The notes beneath the pieces are model-generated. The model was not told the DNA's origin. It ran no database searches and saw only the letters and a list, made by a program, of their open reading frames with translations. A program made the position numbers and the translations under genes. From Nitrospirota bacterium (GTDB taxonomy: Bacteria; Nitrospirota; Thermodesulfovibrionia; Thermodesulfovibrionales; UBA6898): a stretch of DNA of 33,771 bases. Location: contig JAKAGF010000002.1 of NCBI GenBank assembly GCA_021825805.1, positions 1-33,771 of the forward strand, given 5' to 3'. This document shows, one piece after another, positions 18,620 to 26,232 of the stretch (the stretch's first letter is position 1; each line of letters starts with the position of its first letter).

Positions 18620-19561
18620 TTACGTTTCTATAGTAGCCGTCTGTCGCAAATTCGTGACGTCGCGTAACGGCGAATTGCCAAACAGACGGCTGTACTCCCG
18701 GCTGAATTGGGAGGGGCTCTCATAGCCGACCTGAAACGCCGCGGTTGTCGCATCCTGATTTTCGGCGAGCATCAATCGCCGCGCTTCGTTCAAACGCAGC
18801 CATTTCCGGTACTGCAGCGGGCTCATGGCCGTCAGCGCCCGGAAGTGATGATGGAAGGTCGAGGTGCTCATATTGACTTGCGCTGCGAGGTTATCGATAT
18901 GCAACGGCTGTGTGAAGTTACCCTTCAACCAATAGATCGCCCGCGCTATCTGATGACTCTGACTTCCCGCCGACGCCATCTGTCGCAGACGAGCGCCTTG
19001 ATCGCCCACAAGCAAACGGTAAAAAATTTCCCGCTGGATGATCGGCGCAAGGATCGGGATGTCTTTTGGCTCATCAAGCAAGTCGATCAACCGTTGAAAG
19101 GCGGTGAGCAGCGGCAATGTGACTTCGCCGGTCGCCATTCCACGGCTCGATTGCTGCGGACGCGGCGGGGGCAGATTGCTGTCCACCATCAGTTGTGAAA
19201 TCTCGCGCTGATCAAGTTTCAATATGAGCCCCAGGTAAGGCTTCTCCCGGCTCGCATTGATAACCTGCACAACCGTGGGCAGATCCACAGACGTGATTAA
19301 AAAATGCCGGGGGTCATACACATACGTATCGTCTCCGAGCAGCACGCGTTTGGCCCCTTGCGCGATCATGCAAATACGGGGTTCGTACATGATGCTCGTC
19401 GGCCGGCTCGGTTCGTCCCGGCGATAAAGTGACAAGCCCGGGACCGCGGTCATGCGCTGGTCGTCTTTATCGGTCCATCGGGCAATGCTCTTTCCCAACG
19501 TTTCGAGCGCAACTTCCACTGCATTATTTTCAAACGCCTGCTTGACAGCCTGCTTACCCAT
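18620..19561 (-). CDS. AraC-family regulator with AraC_N ligand domain
   Basis: A 313-residue regulator starting at ATG 19561, preceded by AGGAG at about 7 bp; the track start 19612 is longer. The N-terminal domain (residues 1-190) has the SLYRRDEPSRPTSIMYEPRICMIAQGAKRVLLG wording of AraC_N proteins. The C-terminal double helix-turn-helix includes IDNLAAQVNMSTSTFHHHFRAL and AAFQVGYESPSQFSREYSRLFG. Relatives such as YqhC control aldehyde reductase genes. It is divergent from the aldo/keto reductase gene, with a shared promoter element in between. Confidence 0.93.
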   Translation of the reverse strand: MGKQAVKQAFENNAVEVALETLGKSIARWTDKDDQRMTAVPGLSLYRRDEPSRPTSIMYEPRICMIAQGAKRVLLGDDTYVYDPRHFLITSVDLPTVVQVINASREKPYLGLILKLDQREISQLMVDSNLPPPRPQQSSRGMATGEVTLPLLTAFQRLIDLLDEPKDIPILAPIIQREIFYRLLVGDQGARLRQMASAGSQSHQIARAIYWLKGNFTQPLHIDNLAAQVNMSTSTFHHHFRALTAMSPLQYRKWLRLNEARRLMLAENQDATTAAFQVGYESPSQFSREYSRLFGNSPLRDVTNLRQTATIET

Positions 19562-19630
19562 AAATAACTCCTGTTTGATATTACCAGATCCCGCTTCGCC
19601 GTAACAGCCCAATTATCAAAGATGTTGGAT

Positions 19631-19758: not shown

Positions 19759-20751
<993 letters not shown>

Positions 20752-20895
20752 GCGCCGCCTTGTTAAGAAAGCGGCCTGAATTAGGGTTCTGTGGCAACTT
20801 TCGATTTTGAGTGCCTACTCCTGAATTCAGCCGGAAAACACGCTGAGAACCAACCCCGTCAAATGCCTTCCTGACTGCTTTTCCACACAAACTGC

Positions 20896-20931
20896 TTGAC
20901 AATTGTCACGCGTCACGTTACAATTGTCACG
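20896..20931 (+). promoter_or_regulatory. higBA promoter with two overlapping palindromic operators
   Basis: TTGACA (20896-20901), 17 bp, TACAAT (20919-20924) is a near-perfect sigma70 promoter. ACAATTGTCACG occurs twice (20899-20910, 20920-20931), 21 bp apart, about two helical turns; its ACAATTGT core is a perfect palindrome. The copies overlap the -35 and the -10, as expected for autorepression by HigA or HigBA. Confidence 0.85.
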
Positions 20932-21212
20932 TGATAAAGACGTTTGCCGACAAACACACCTATGGCTTCTATGCCACCGGCAAGTCCAGGCGTTTGCCGG
21001 CTGACCTGTTGAAACGCGCCATGCGGCGGCTGGAATATATAGACCTGGCATCAAGACTGGAGGATTTAAAGGTCCCTCCCGGCAACCGGCTCCACGCTTT
21101 GAAAGACGACCGGGAGGGCCGGTACTCCATTTCAATTAACGACCAATGGCGTATCTGCTTTCGCTTTAAAGACGGCGATGCATATGACGTCGAAATAACC
21201 GACTATCATTAA
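20931..21212 (+). CDS. higB: HigB-like toxin (RelE/ParE superfamily mRNA interferase)
   Basis: A 93-residue basic protein, MIKTFADKHTYGFYATGKSRRLP to CFRFKDGDAYDVEITDYH, the usual HigB/RelE-fold layout that cleaves mRNA at the ribosome. The GTG start at 20931 gives the canonical MIK-F beginning. It lies about 7 bp after the -10 box with no Shine-Dalgarno sequence, suggesting leaderless translation. The toxin precedes the antitoxin, as is normal for HigBA. Confidence 0.92.
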   Translation: MIKTFADKHTYGFYATGKSRRLPADLLKRAMRRLEYIDLASRLEDLKVPPGNRLHALKDDREGRYSISINDQWRICFRFKDGDAYDVEITDYH

Positions 21213-21222
21213 GAGGTGTACG

Positions 21223-21537
21223 ATGGCTATTGCAAACAAAGAGGTGCGAACGGTGAAACCTACCCATCCGGGAGAAATGCTTCGCGAGGATTTTCTCCCC
21301 GATTACGAGCTTAGTGCGGCGAGCCTCGCCGATGCCCTTGGCGTTTCCCGTCAAACTGTCAACGAGATACTGCGCGAACGCCGGGCGGTTTCACCTGCCA
21401 TGGCATTGCTGTTATCGCGCCTGTTCGGCAATTCGCCCGAGTTCTGGCTGAATGCCCAGCGTGCAGTCGATCTTTGGGAAGCGAAAAAGCGCCAGGACAA
21501 GAAGCTCAAACGAATACAGCCTTTGAATGCCGCTTAG
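21223..21537 (+). CDS. higA: HigA-like antitoxin (XRE family)
   Basis: A 104-residue XRE-type DNA-binding protein beginning with the HigA hallmark KPTHPGEMLREDFLPDYELSAASLADALGVSRQTVNEIL. It continues VSPAMALLLSRLFGNSPEFWLNAQRAVDLWEA. It neutralises HigB and represses the operon, probably at the ACAATTGT palindromes. AGAGG precedes the ATG; it lies 10 bp after higB. Confidence 0.94.
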   Translation: MAIANKEVRTVKPTHPGEMLREDFLPDYELSAASLADALGVSRQTVNEILRERRAVSPAMALLLSRLFGNSPEFWLNAQRAVDLWEAKKRQDKKLKRIQPLNAA

Positions 21538-21659
21538 GTTGACTGGCATGGTTGGAGCGAGCTGCTTAAACATCCGTGCAGACTTTCCTTAGAAGCTGTA
21601 TCGTGCTCAAACGGTCGAAGCTTCATGTAAAAAAAGACGTACGATGAGAGGAGTTAAAA

Positions 21660-23780
21660 ATGCCGGACATCATTAAGAATATAGCGTCGCAGCTGCCGCA
21701 GCCGTCTTTGCCTCAGCCAGAGCACGAAGCTGGCGAGATACTACGCAGTCTGGTTGATGAGGCCGCCTATGTTGGGGAGGTTGTGTCTCTCGGCTACAGT
21801 GAGGCCATACTTCAGATCCACGATTTTCATCGACAACGAGTCGGGGGTATCCCGGCACTCTGTTTCCTGCTCGGTTCGCGTGTGAATCCACAAGTTACGC
21901 CAGACCCAAGAGCTGAAGACTCATCAGTTATCCTGATGCGCGTTATGGATCATGCCGATCTACCAAACGCTGAAGAAGCCAAGCGTGTCCGCGTGGAAAA
22001 TGCACAAAAAGTGAGTGGCGAGGTAGGAGTGAATTGGGATGACCGCACAGTAATGGACGCGACAACACATCATCTTTTGAGTTATGCCGGTGTACGATGC
22101 CGCGTGATTGGTACTTTCTATATGGCTAATCTTGGTGATGATGCTGCACCGAACTGGCAATTGTGTTTCGGCTCGGACATCAGTAACTATTATCCAAACC
22201 GCGGCTTGAAAGTATTTAAACCTCGCGGAGACGTTTTGGAACGCATTGTAAATTACCGCGATCCGATGATATTTTCAGGATTACGAATACCAATGGTACA
22301 TACGGGCCATGTGCGTTATGCTTCCACTAATCGCCGATTTCAGCAGGTGGCCAATGTGCCAGTATCAGTAACACCTACAGATTTATTGGGTCAGAAGACC
22401 GCTTTGTTCGGGATGACGCGTACTGGTAAATCCAATACTACGAAAATTGTTTTGAAAGCTATTTTTGAATTACGTTGGGCAGCCACTGACGCCTTGAAGA
22501 TCGGGCAACTTATATTCGATCCAAATGGTGAATATGCAAATGAAAACACACAAGACGCGAGCACAGGCAGTGACAATCCAAATGCAATTAAGAACGTCTG
22601 GAAATGCGCGCCCCCTAACGTGCAAGCAGGTTTTCGAAAAGATGTCATTACTTATGGGATTACGAAACACCCGAACGATCCAGAGCGAATTCTGATGTTG
22701 CTTAATTTCTATCAAGATCAGAATTTACAGACCGGCAAAGAAATTATTAACGCCGCCCTAACTGAACGAGCTATTGGTCGCATTTATATTTCTAATTTCA
22801 TAGACGTTAACTTCCAATTGCCCGAAGACGCTGATAATGGTGACAAAGTGCGATATCGGCGACGGGTGATGTTCTATCGCGCATTACTACATGAGGCCGG
22901 CTTCGGAAAACCACCTCTAAAAGAAGCAAGATTGGAAGGCTTATTTAATAAAGATTTGAGAAAAGCGTTGAACTCAAGTAAATCAAAAGAGGCGCAAAAA
23001 TATCAGGCATGTGCAGCAATATTTGAAAAAGAGATGGCGTCTTGGACTGAAGTCGCACAAGCAGGAAAGATTCTACATGAATTTATTGAAGATAAAACGT
23101 CTGGCTATCAGGAATTTGAAGCTGAATATGTCAAACAGAGTTCGTCAGGATTTTGGGCTGATGATGCTTTGAAGAAAACTCTTGGCATTTGGGGGTACCC
23201 GAATGGCCCCAAGTTGATTAGTGCTGTTAAAGAGCAACATACCAGCGACACACACACAGACTATGCTGATGATATTTATGCACATTTGCAGGCTGGTCGG
23301 CTTGTTATCGTTGATCAGTCGAGTGGTAATGCGGAAATCAACAAAGCGGCAGCAGATAGAATTATTCTGAAAATATTTGAGAGAAATAAAGCGCTGTTCC
23401 GTCAGGGCGATAGAAGGCCGGAAATCCTGGTCTATATTGAAGAAGCTCATAACACCTTACCACCAGCAAAGGAAGACGATCTTACAGATATTTGGGTGCG
23501 TACGGCAAAAGAAGGTGCAAAATACAATATCGGATTGGTTTATGCGACTCAGGAAGTATCTTCAATTCAAAAGAATATTCTTCGGAACACTGCCAATTGG
23601 TTCATTGGTCATCTGAACAACACTGATGAGACGAGGGAGCTTCGAAAATTCTATGACTTCGCTGATTTCGAAAACAGCATTCTACGTGCACAGGACCGCG
23701 GATTCATCAGAATGAAGACACTGTCAAATCCCTATATTGTTCCGATCCAAGTTGATCGCTTCAACATTCAAGAGGGCTGA
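21660..23780 (+). CDS. herA: HerA-like hexameric helicase/translocase (FtsK-HerA ATPase)
   Basis: A 706-residue ATPase. The N-terminal about 240 residues include a HAS-barrel-like region; Walker [11 protein letters not shown] lies at 251-260, Walker [15 protein letters not shown] near 590, then [22 protein letters not shown] (sensor/Arg-finger region). HerA forms a DNA-translocating ring with NurA nuclease, whose gene follows 5 bp later. The gene is AT-richer than the flanking core genes. It is the first gene of a cassette HerA-NurA-methyltransferase-DUF488; GAGAGGAG precedes the ATG. Confidence 0.9.
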
Positions 23781-23785
23781 GAACT

Positions 23786-25129
23786 ATGCCATACGAGGGA
23801 GAATACGCTCATTACCAACCGCTGAAACGCATTGTCGAGTCCGAGCGTGTCCAGCAATTACTCCGCAGATCCCGTGTGCTTGATCCGGCAACGCTGACGC
23901 ATCACGCGACGCCCAAAACGCCACCCGTTGCCGATAAAACGTTACCATCTCTCGTGTTGGCGATTGACGGGAGCAACGCAGAAGTAGATGTTCGTAATGG
24001 ATATCCGGGAGCAAAGGTCGGGTACTGTTCAGTGGCTTCTGTTGTCCTAAATCTCGATGAAGTTGAACGGCTTGATGAAAACCGGCCCGTGAACCCGATA
24101 GAATTTCGTCGCACAGAAGACTTGTCGTCTGATGCCTGTGCTCTTCCGGGTTGTAATGTTATTACTCGAGACCATGTTGCGGCAAAGGATTCTTTTCGAG
24201 AGGCAGTCTTCGACCTACTTCATGACGCAATTGTTGATGAAGAAGACAACACGCGGTTGCTTGCGACGTATCAAGCGCTTCTCAGGTATAAACCGGAAGG
24301 GACAATTAGCTGCCCTTACACGCATCTCGGTTGTGAGCGTCAGGTATCCATTATGGAACATCTTAGCACGTGCACATGTGGGAGAAAAAAACCTCTGTTT
24401 CCAACAGATGCGTTACGCATTCACGAGCGATTCAATGACGAATCGGGAAGCAATGGAGAAGCCTTTGGCTATGTGCGCGGCGTTTGGGAACACCTTCTGC
24501 TGATTCACTTATTGAGATGTTTCGAGCAACGCAATTGGTTTGATCGTCTCGGGTCCATTGCCTTTTTCCTCGACGGACCCTTGGCTGTATTCGGGCCGCC
24601 CGCTTGGATGAGTGCTGCTATGAAGAAGGAATTACAGCGTTTGAATGCGGTTGTTCGAGAGAAAACTGGCAATGACATGATTATTGTAGGTATTGAAAAG
24701 TCTGGTAACTTTGTCGCACATTTCGCGGATATTGACAAACGGGATGATGGCGGCCAGAACTTTCAACCTGAGTCATATTTCCTTCCGACAGATGCTTACA
24801 TCAAACAGCGAATTATTTTTTCAGACAGCGATAAACAATATGGTAAGGATACTTACTTTGGCAGAAAGTTATTCTATAAGACGAAGAGTGGGGCGCAAAT
24901 CGTAGCCAACATTCCATTTCTGTCATCTGAACAGGATACGCTTGATAGCGATGATCCTTCGCTTTATCCTCGTTTTGGAACAATCTGTGCGCTGCTTGAC
25001 AAGCTGGTAACTTCACGTTTTCCGAATGCGCTTGGTCCAATTGTCAGCGCACATGCGCAAGCCTCTATCCCGCTGCATCTAGGCCAGAAAGTGCTGAAAC
25101 AACTGGCTCAGGCGTTAATGCGAAAATGA
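23786..25129 (+). CDS. nurA: NurA-domain nuclease with zinc-finger-like insert
   Basis: A 447-residue protein. The NurA hallmark VLAIDGSNAEVDVRNGYPGAKVGYCSVASVV lies near residues 52-80 and IIVGIEKSGNFVAHF near 295; these carry the acidic and Lys/Ser residues of the catalytic site. NurA is a 5'-3' exo- and ssDNA endonuclease working with HerA. An insert at 176-198 (CPYTHLGC...HLSTCTC, C-x6-C-x8-H-x3-C) resembles a TRAF-type zinc finger and is not a usual NurA element as far as I recall. Its stop overlaps the methyltransferase start (ATGA). Confidence 0.85.
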   Translation: MPYEGEYAHYQPLKRIVESERVQQLLRRSRVLDPATLTHHATPKTPPVADKTLPSLVLAIDGSNAEVDVRNGYPGAKVGYCSVASVVLNLDEVERLDENRPVNPIEFRRTEDLSSDACALPGCNVITRDHVAAKDSFREAVFDLLHDAIVDEEDNTRLLATYQALLRYKPEGTISCPYTHLGCERQVSIMEHLSTCTCGRKKPLFPTDALRIHERFNDESGSNGEAFGYVRGVWEHLLLIHLLRCFEQRNWFDRLGSIAFFLDGPLAVFGPPAWMSAAMKKELQRLNAVVREKTGNDMIIVGIEKSGNFVAHFADIDKRDDGGQNFQPESYFLPTDAYIKQRIIFSDSDKQYGKDTYFGRKLFYKTKSGAQIVANIPFLSSEQDTLDSDDPSLYPRFGTICALLDKLVTSRFPNALGPIVSAHAQASIPLHLGQKVLKQLAQALMRK

Positions 25130-26232
25130 TTAAAACTGAGATCACCATATCACGCTATGGAACTGCTGCAAGCCGATGGGCAGGCGTCGGCCCATACTAT
25201 GCCATGTTCCCAGTAAATTTTGCGACTGCGGCCGTGAGGGAATACACCAAGCCCGGCGATGGCGTCTTTGATCCGTTTGCCGGACGCGCTACTTCTCTAT
25301 TCGCAGCTGCTTCCGAGGGGCGTATTGGATTGGGAATTGAAATTAATCCTGTTGGATGGGTTTATGGCAAGGCAAAGTTGCAGACGGCAGCGCGAGCAGA
25401 TGTTGAACAGCGCATCGAATGGCTGGGCAAAAGGGCGAAGAATTACCGAGCCGCTGCAAAAGGATTGCCTGAGTTCTTTACGTACTGCTACTGTTCTAAG
25501 GTCCGGGAATTTCTTTTGGCGGCTCGCGATTTACTATGCTGGCGTCGTGCAAAAACTGATTGGACAACAATGGCGTTACTTCTTATCGATTTACATGGAA
25601 AGAGAGAAAGTGCCTTATCGAATCAGATGCGACAAACAAAAGCAATGTCGCCTCAATATGCGATTGGCTGGTGGAAGGAGAATAAACTGGAGCCGCCAGA
25701 GCGTAATCCCGTTGAGTTCATGCTTAAGAAAGTGGCGTGGCGATACGCAAGGGGACGTTTAGAGGCCAGCGAGGGGCGCGTTTATTTGGGAGATTCACAA
25801 CTCATTCTTGCAAGATGGGAAAACAATGCGCCAAAACAAAGGGCGACCCTTCTGCTCACGTCTCCACCTTATCATGGAGTTACAAATTACTTTTATGACC
25901 AATGGCTGCGGTTATGGTTGCTCGGTGGGTCGGAAAAGTTCTATAGCACTGGTGAACCTTGTAAACGAAAATTTGATAATAAGAAACACTACATTGCCAT
26001 GCTATGCCGAGTGTTCACGAAGTCAAAGCCTCTACTGAAGCGTAACGCAGTTGTGTATGTGCGCACTGACGCACGCCAATTTACCAGAGAAGCAACAATT
26101 GAAGCTCTTGAGACTGCTTTTCCTCAAAAGAGGTTGCGTGACGAGCGGTTCTCGTTGCCAGCATTCTCTCAAACCGCCTTGTTTGATTCAGCTCGGGAAC
26201 CGAAAGGTGAAATTGATTTCGTAATGTGGTAA
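25126..26232 (+). CDS. DNA methyltransferase (N6-adenine/N4-cytosine type)
   Basis: A 368-residue SAM-dependent enzyme. SAM-binding motif I is VFDPFAGRATSLFAAASEG (residues 48-66), with IGLGIEINP next. The catalytic motif IV is LLLTSPPYHGVTNYF (about 243-257), the (D/N/S)PP(Y/W) box of amino-methyltransferases. Motif I precedes motif IV with about 190 residues between, which may hold the target recognition region. Overlap with the NurA-like gene implies a shared operon and points to a restriction-modification-like or defence role. Confidence 0.85.
   Translation: MIKTEITISRYGTAASRWAGVGPYYAMFPVNFATAAVREYTKPGDGVFDPFAGRATSLFAAASEGRIGLGIEINPVGWVYGKAKLQTAARADVEQRIEWLGKRAKNYRAAAKGLPEFFTYCYCSKVREFLLAARDLLCWRRAKTDWTTMALLLIDLHGKRESALSNQMRQTKAMSPQYAIGWWKENKLEPPERNPVEFMLKKVAWRYARGRLEASEGRVYLGDSQLILARWENNAPKQRATLLLTSPPYHGVTNYFYDQWLRLWLLGGSEKFYSTGEPCKRKFDNKKHYIAMLCRVFTKSKPLLKRNAVVYVRTDARQFTREATIEALETAFPQKRLRDERFSLPAFSQTALFDSAREPKGEIDFVMW

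Follow-up and report, generated by a model that had tools for sequence, protein, structure and literature searches.

A Nitrospirota HigBA operon with a predicted leaderless toxin gene and a Shine-Dalgarno-led antitoxin gene, a layout shared among HigB relatives

The 33,771-nucleotide stretch of DNA analysed here (the window) carries a pair of genes in which the toxin gene precedes the antitoxin gene, with 10 nt between the higB stop codon and the higA ATG. The first product matches the HigB-like RelE-fold toxin domain PF05015 over the full profile (5.1e-20, 72 bits, cut-off 27), and the second matches the HTH-containing HigA family TIGR02607 (6e-31, 106 bits, cut-off 47.7). Among known structures, HigB is closest to GraT of Pseudomonas putida (6f8s, 1e-20) and then to the HigB of Rts1 (4mct), whereas the best match of HigA is GraA (2e-21). 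The LHxLK, WRI and C-terminal DYH motifs of HigB, which have a catalytic role, align with Rts1 HigB, and the toxin is putatively a ribosome-dependent mRNase that HigA neutralises. From these sequence matches, we assign the locus to the type II toxin-antitoxin operons of the HigBA (GraTA-like) kind, on the chromosome of a Nitrospirota bacterium, with the following features.

20896–20901, + strand: TTGACA, the −35 element of the promoter of higBA, invariant or almost so in relatives
20897–20908, no strand: perfect palindrome TGACAATTGTCA over the −35 element, overlapping the first ACAATTGTCACG copy
20904–20915, no strand: operator-like site 1, TGTCACGCGTCA, PWM score 12.0, at the place equivalent to the family operator
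20911–20922, no strand: operator-like site 2, CGTCACGTTACA, PWM score 17.3, overlapping the −10 element
20915–20932, no strand: near-perfect palindrome ACGTTACAATTGTCACGT over the −10 element and the start, containing the second ACAATTGTCACG copy
20919–20924, + strand: −10 element TACAAT after a 17-nt spacer, with TAC(A)nT conserved in relatives
20925–20930, + strand: discriminator, 6 nt from the −10 element to the start codon, of fixed length and free sequence in relatives
20925–20936, no strand: operator-like site 3, TGTCACGTGATA, PWM score 17.3, overlapping the GTG start codon
20931, + strand: transcription start predicted from the −10 position, the first base of the GTG
20931–21212, + strand: higB, HigB/GraT-type RelE-superfamily toxin, 93 aa, GTG start, no Shine-Dalgarno (SD) sequence, PF05015
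21213–21218, + strand: SD sequence GAGGTG of higA, 4 nt 5′ of its ATG
21223–21537, + strand: higA, HigA/GraA-type HTH antitoxin, 104 aa, ATG start, TIGR02607

The initial annotation had placed a TTGACA-N17-TACAAT promoter directly before higB, with the GTG 6 nt further on, transcription beginning at about position 20931, and HigB starting as MIK-F at that codon. The letters and coordinates of this description are all correct, with the +1 position standing as a prediction. The two hexamers match the consensus at 11 of 12 positions, and the GTG (20931–20933) is the sole possible start, because the higB frame upstream of it contains no ATG, GTG or TTG; in relatives, too, the MIK-S/T-F start sits on the start codon. 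A scan of positions 20700 to 21700 finds this promoter as the only sigma-70-like site on the + strand, with one weak divergent promoter (9/12) on the minus strand and no extra promoter for higA predicted inside higB. There is no SD sequence before higB, and the longest SD-like match upstream of the gene is at most 3 nt at 78 of 80 closely related loci. Among the relatives compared, SD-like matches 5′ of higB do not exceed 4 nt and those of most higA genes span 4–8 nt. No 16S gene for a check of the anti-SD sequence was found in the assembly.

The argument for a leaderless toxin gene is carried by comparison with 80 close relatives (protein identity 66–84%), which come from Desulfobacterota, Nitrospirota, Chloroflexota, Actinomycetota, Gammaproteobacteria and other groups. 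The end of the −10 element lies 5–8 nt from the ATG or GTG in 77 of these 80, and the gap is 6 nt in 44 and 7 nt in 29, so that 73 relatives have one of these two lengths. A promoter-like site at the same distance occurs in only 1 of 333 control ORFs from the same loci, under a stricter score that 56 of 79 higB genes pass. Among the close relatives, pairwise identity is 27% upstream of the −35 element, 93% within it, 70% in the spacer, 73% in the −10 element and 31% in the discriminator, the last being below the 38% seen at third codon positions. Given that the discriminator is free in sequence but fixed at 6–7 nt, it is the spacing that is conserved, and selection seems to act on the distance between the −10 element and the start codon. 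Taken together, these comparisons strongly support the proposal that a leaderless higB is followed by an SD-led higA, although some relatives may carry a leader of 1–2 nt, and they indicate that the leaderless layout is a family trait of HigB relatives across many phyla. One close relative, from Latescibacteria (L057, upstream of 3001), is the only one without a trace of a TTGACA/TGTCACGTGAC promoter; its HigB and HigA are intact.

The exact 5′ end can be considered from the base that precedes the start codon. A pyrimidine stands at this position in 59 of 67 genes with a 6-nt gap, 24 of 40 with a 7-nt gap and 4 of 13 with an 8-nt gap. The excess in the 6-nt class is significant relative to SD-led control genes (80/129, p = 1e-4), and the pool of all gap classes does not differ significantly from the same control (p = 0.08), and some family members may thus have leaders of 1–2 nt. 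The pattern fits initiation on a purine 7–8 nt past the −10 element. In the 6-nt class, to which the window belongs, it also fits a predicted +1 at the start-codon purine, with transcripts of the other classes sometimes beginning 1–2 nt earlier. No mapped 5′ end for a close relative was found in the papers searched.

Operators covering the −35 and −10 elements had also been proposed, in the form of two copies of a 12-mer placed 21 bp apart. Both exact ACAATTGTCACG copies are present (20899–20910 and 20920–20931), and they overlap the promoter elements as described. They form halves of two AATTGT-centred near-palindromes over the −35 and −10 elements, which explains two further ACAATTGTCACG matches on the minus strand. 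The 12-mer is not rare, with five matches in the window at up to two mismatches against a mean of 2.3 in shuffled sequences. By itself it would be weak, and the significance of the locus comes instead from the comparison with relatives (77/80 against 1/333). As a candidate family operator the ACAATTGTCACG pair was rejected, because relatives share TGTCACGTGACA in the spacer instead. Thus, the outline of an operator laid over the promoter was right, but the element was wrong: the conserved operator-like palindrome lies in the spacer, and three sites span 20904–20936 in the window. With a PWM built from relatives, these three operator-like sites have the best scores in the whole 33.8-kb window. 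The element common to the relatives, TGTCACGTGACA between the −35 and −10 elements, forms a half-site series together with TGACA in the −35 element and TTACA in the −10 element. Exact GTCACGTGAC occurs in the spacer of 43 of 76 relatives, and TCACGTGA, conserved in the spacers of relatives, is found at 20927–20934 in the window. The third site, over the GTG, is seen elsewhere only in the nearest relative (L001).

Beyond the close relatives, the same layout is present in 40 of 52 diverse or divergent Nitrospirota HigBs. The source genome has two paralogues, one (L082) with TATTAT, 6 nt and GTG when judged by eye, although the automatic score chose another site, and one (L083) with TTGTAA-N17-TACAAT followed by 11 nt and ATG. 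In the order to which Marinobacter belongs, 16–17 of roughly 28 GraT-like HigBs are leaderless and 4 are leadered, the others being weak. On a tree of 174 HigBs, in which many forks are unresolved, 132 are leaderless and 15 leadered, with at least 13 changes, and leaderless members occur in all main branches, including both deep ones. The leadered minority includes L071, L083 and the Rts1-type plasmid loci L143, L144 and L157, the last three (L143 being Rts1-type and L144 and L157 from enterobacterial plasmids) having 29–30 nt between the −10 element and the start. The leader of L143, L144 and L157 repeats operator letters, and these loci provide a natural contrast set to leaderless higB.

As a genome background, we used 20 contigs together with the window and tested all starts within the first 30 codons, and 8 of 191 genes are leaderless-like. 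Leaderless genes may be present in the source genome at a few percent. A promoter abutting a start codon is seen elsewhere in the genome, for example at G000:C1:8457 on the + strand, and one example reads TTATAATTTGAC-GTG.

The same test was applied to other toxin-antitoxin families of Nitrospirota. Leaderless genes were scored in 20 of 29 HigB operons and 14 of 30 of the likewise toxin-first BrnT operons, compared with 0 of 30 operons of the antitoxin-first Phd/YefM type (Fisher test against Phd: p = 4e-9 for HigB and p = 2e-5 for BrnT), in which 28 of 30 antitoxin genes have an SD sequence. The SD counts for second genes (28/30 and 28/29) are inflated, since the choice of start favoured candidates with an SD sequence. 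A third toxin-first family, HicA, yielded 3 leaderless genes among 29 and is uninformative, as many of the hicA genes sampled may occupy a later place in their operon. From the HigB and BrnT counts set against those of Phd, the gene without an SD sequence is the toxin when the toxin comes first, a pattern that suggests a rule valid for toxin-first operons in general. Individual BrnT loci from Nitrospirota (L228, L234, L235, L238 and L241) have a TTGACA-type promoter, TACAAT ending exactly 6 nt before the ATG and no SD sequence; brnTA may be leaderless too.

We consider it highly probable that higBA in the window is a leaderless operon with one promoter, that HigA represses it through the palindromes, and that an SD-led higA likely yields antitoxin in excess. 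A single sigma-70-type promoter would drive both genes, and the transcript would begin at the HigB start codon or no more than 1–2 nt away from it. HigA dimers would repress by filling the spacer between the −35 and −10 elements through TCACGTGA-type palindromes, thereby occupying the promoter core, and in the window copy the predicted HigA sites extend over the −10 element and the start codon. A fall in HigA level would release a transcript beginning at GUG, from which higB would be translated as a leaderless mRNA by recognition of its start codon, and higA from an internal SD-led site. It is likely that higA would recruit ribosomes better than higB does, so that antitoxin would be in excess despite the toxin-first order.

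Toxin synthesis would also be confined to transcripts from the repressible promoter of the operon itself. The 5′ neighbours of higBA are genes for an aldo/keto reductase (19771–20751, + strand) and an AraC-family regulator (18620–19612, minus strand). No + strand terminator is predicted between the reductase gene and higB, and read-through into higBA is therefore possible. Read-through RNA from the window could form a 10-bp hairpin before the GUG (20897–20906 paired with 20920–20929, z −4.3), which, combined with the lack of an SD sequence for higB, would, as a hypothesis, block toxin synthesis while antitoxin is still made. This hairpin was rejected as a family trait, because the mean z across relatives is −1.1 and the structure is strong only in the window.

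It is plausible that leaderlessness holds the toxin below the antitoxin, but the size of this effect would depend on the host. Leaderless mRNAs are translated well in mycobacteria. A leaderless reporter in E. coli gives about 10-fold less product (PMC8485053), and leaderless GUG starts perform poorly in E. coli and Caulobacter and well in actinobacteria (PMC9031893). Because leaderless mRNAs, including those with GUG, are translated well in some bacteria, a low toxin yield in Nitrospirota is not assured.

Given these considerations, it seems appropriate to weigh other explanations for the arrangement. A conventional leader, with the true promoter further upstream and TTGACA-N17-TACAAT being merely operator sequence, might be entertained because palindromic operators may mimic promoter hexamers by chance and Rts1-type relatives have about 25–30 nt between the −10 element and the start. 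We judge it very improbable: there is no other promoter-like site on the + strand between 20700 and 20930, relatives keep the −35 element, the 17-nt spacer and the −10 element while sequence upstream of the −35 element is unrelated (27% identity), and such a leader would hold no SD sequence either. A rather different concern is that the start codon abuts the −10 element as a by-product of the HigA operator having been packed tightly over the promoter, without any translational or stoichiometric effect. Promoter hexamers aside, no noncoding element is better conserved than the spacer operator, and HigBA loci are compact mobile modules, some of them apparently integron cassettes. This reading nevertheless appears somewhat unlikely, since an operator upstream of the −10 element does not force the start codon against it, the gap is fixed in length though the discriminator is free in sequence, and in the same phylum toxin-first BrnT has the same gap and antitoxin-first Phd has an SD sequence.

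The remaining alternative accepts the leaderless transcript and gives it another purpose, in that leaderless higB might be favoured when stress impairs canonical initiation, rather than being kept low. In E. coli and M. tuberculosis, translation of leaderless mRNAs continues or increases when cells are stressed or their ribosomes are altered, and toxin-antitoxin transcripts of Methylosinus and M. tuberculosis are often leaderless. The specialised-ribosome model for MazF is disputed (PMC7167474), and we regard conditional expression of higB as unlikely. Our preferred reading remains that the leaderless higB and SD-led higA serve stoichiometry: because the same layout occurs in most HigB relatives across many phyla, it probably helps to keep toxin production below antitoxin production.

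HigBA systems are well known, and the closest counterpart is GraTA of P. putida (HigBA family; 6f8s, 6f8h and 6fix), which is toxin-first and the best structural match for both proteins. In GraTA the antitoxin alone represses, and in the window repression by HigA is predicted from the operator-like palindromes. Two GraA dimers bind a palindrome centred on CG (PMC6393540), and both systems have such an 8-bp palindrome with flanking half-sites, TAACGTTA in GraTA and TCACGTGA in the window. In an operator of the GraTA type, the two HTH dimers sit on opposite faces of the DNA. GraTA differs in its operator letters, and the window has a series of three overlapping sites that extends to the start codon; moreover, its authors speak of a native SD sequence before graT, and the GraTA text searched reports no leaderless graT transcript. 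The HigBA of Rts1 from Proteus vulgaris (4mct) likewise has homologous proteins, a toxin-first order and an operator overlapping the promoter, but it is leadered, with about 30 nt from the −10 element to the ATG and a second palindrome in the leader (L143). In V. cholerae HigBA2, the operator also covers the promoter core, with the HigA2 footprint running from just after the −35 element over the −10 element (PMC11006873); its palindrome is a different one, TGTACGC-N5-GCGTACA.

Leaderless toxin-antitoxin transcripts are known in M. tuberculosis (PMC3898074), whose phylum has pervasive leaderless transcription and for which the text singles out no combination of leaderless toxin and SD-led antitoxin. 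They are also known in Methylosinus (PMC12403871). In the autoregulated HTH gene paaR2 of another toxin-antitoxin operon, 5′ RACE mapped the transcription start to the start codon (PMC8630535). The leaderless gene is a regulator in PaaR2 and lambda cI, whereas it is the toxin in the window. No description of a leaderless higB or graT was found in the papers searched, with many subscription papers being out of reach, and the family-wide layout of a leaderless toxin first and an SD-led antitoxin second is apparently undescribed. The toxin:antitoxin ratio in reverse operons, HigBA included, has been called an open question (PMC5906591), and reviews appeal to additional promoters for the antitoxin gene (PMC7167474). 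The pairing of a leaderless toxin with an SD-led antitoxin, which is conserved in most HigB relatives and has a parallel in BrnT, offers a concrete and testable answer to how antitoxin excess might be achieved. A practical consequence is that cloning higB behind an artificial SD sequence alters a naturally conserved feature.

More tentatively, a leaderless toxin gene abutting the −10 element and an SD-led antitoxin gene might be a design shared by toxin-first operons (HigBA/GraTA and many BrnTA), setting antitoxin excess at the level of translation and making the toxin unreadable from outside promoters; we see this extension as possible rather than probable. If true, toxin-first modules could change place, for instance in the form of integron cassettes, and promoters near the new site would not switch them on.

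Of 77 close relatives, 15 have boxes 5′ of higB that resemble the R′ box of attC sites (GTTA[GT]GC), compared with 36 of 3089 control tiles (1.2%). These boxes lie 53–82 nt upstream of higB in L015, L021, L027, L033, L035, L038, L050, L060, L066 and others, and the HigBA pairs that have them look like integron cassettes. The region upstream of higB in the window has no match to the pattern.

Directly 3′ of higBA, the interval 21660–25129 encodes a HerA-like DUF87 ATPase (706 aa, for which the best PADLOC matches are HerA) and, next to it, a NurA-domain protein (447 aa). The next gene (25126–26232) encodes a protein that matches N6_N4_Mtase in part. The HerA-like ATPase and NurA-domain genes are a possible HerA-NurA defence or repair module.
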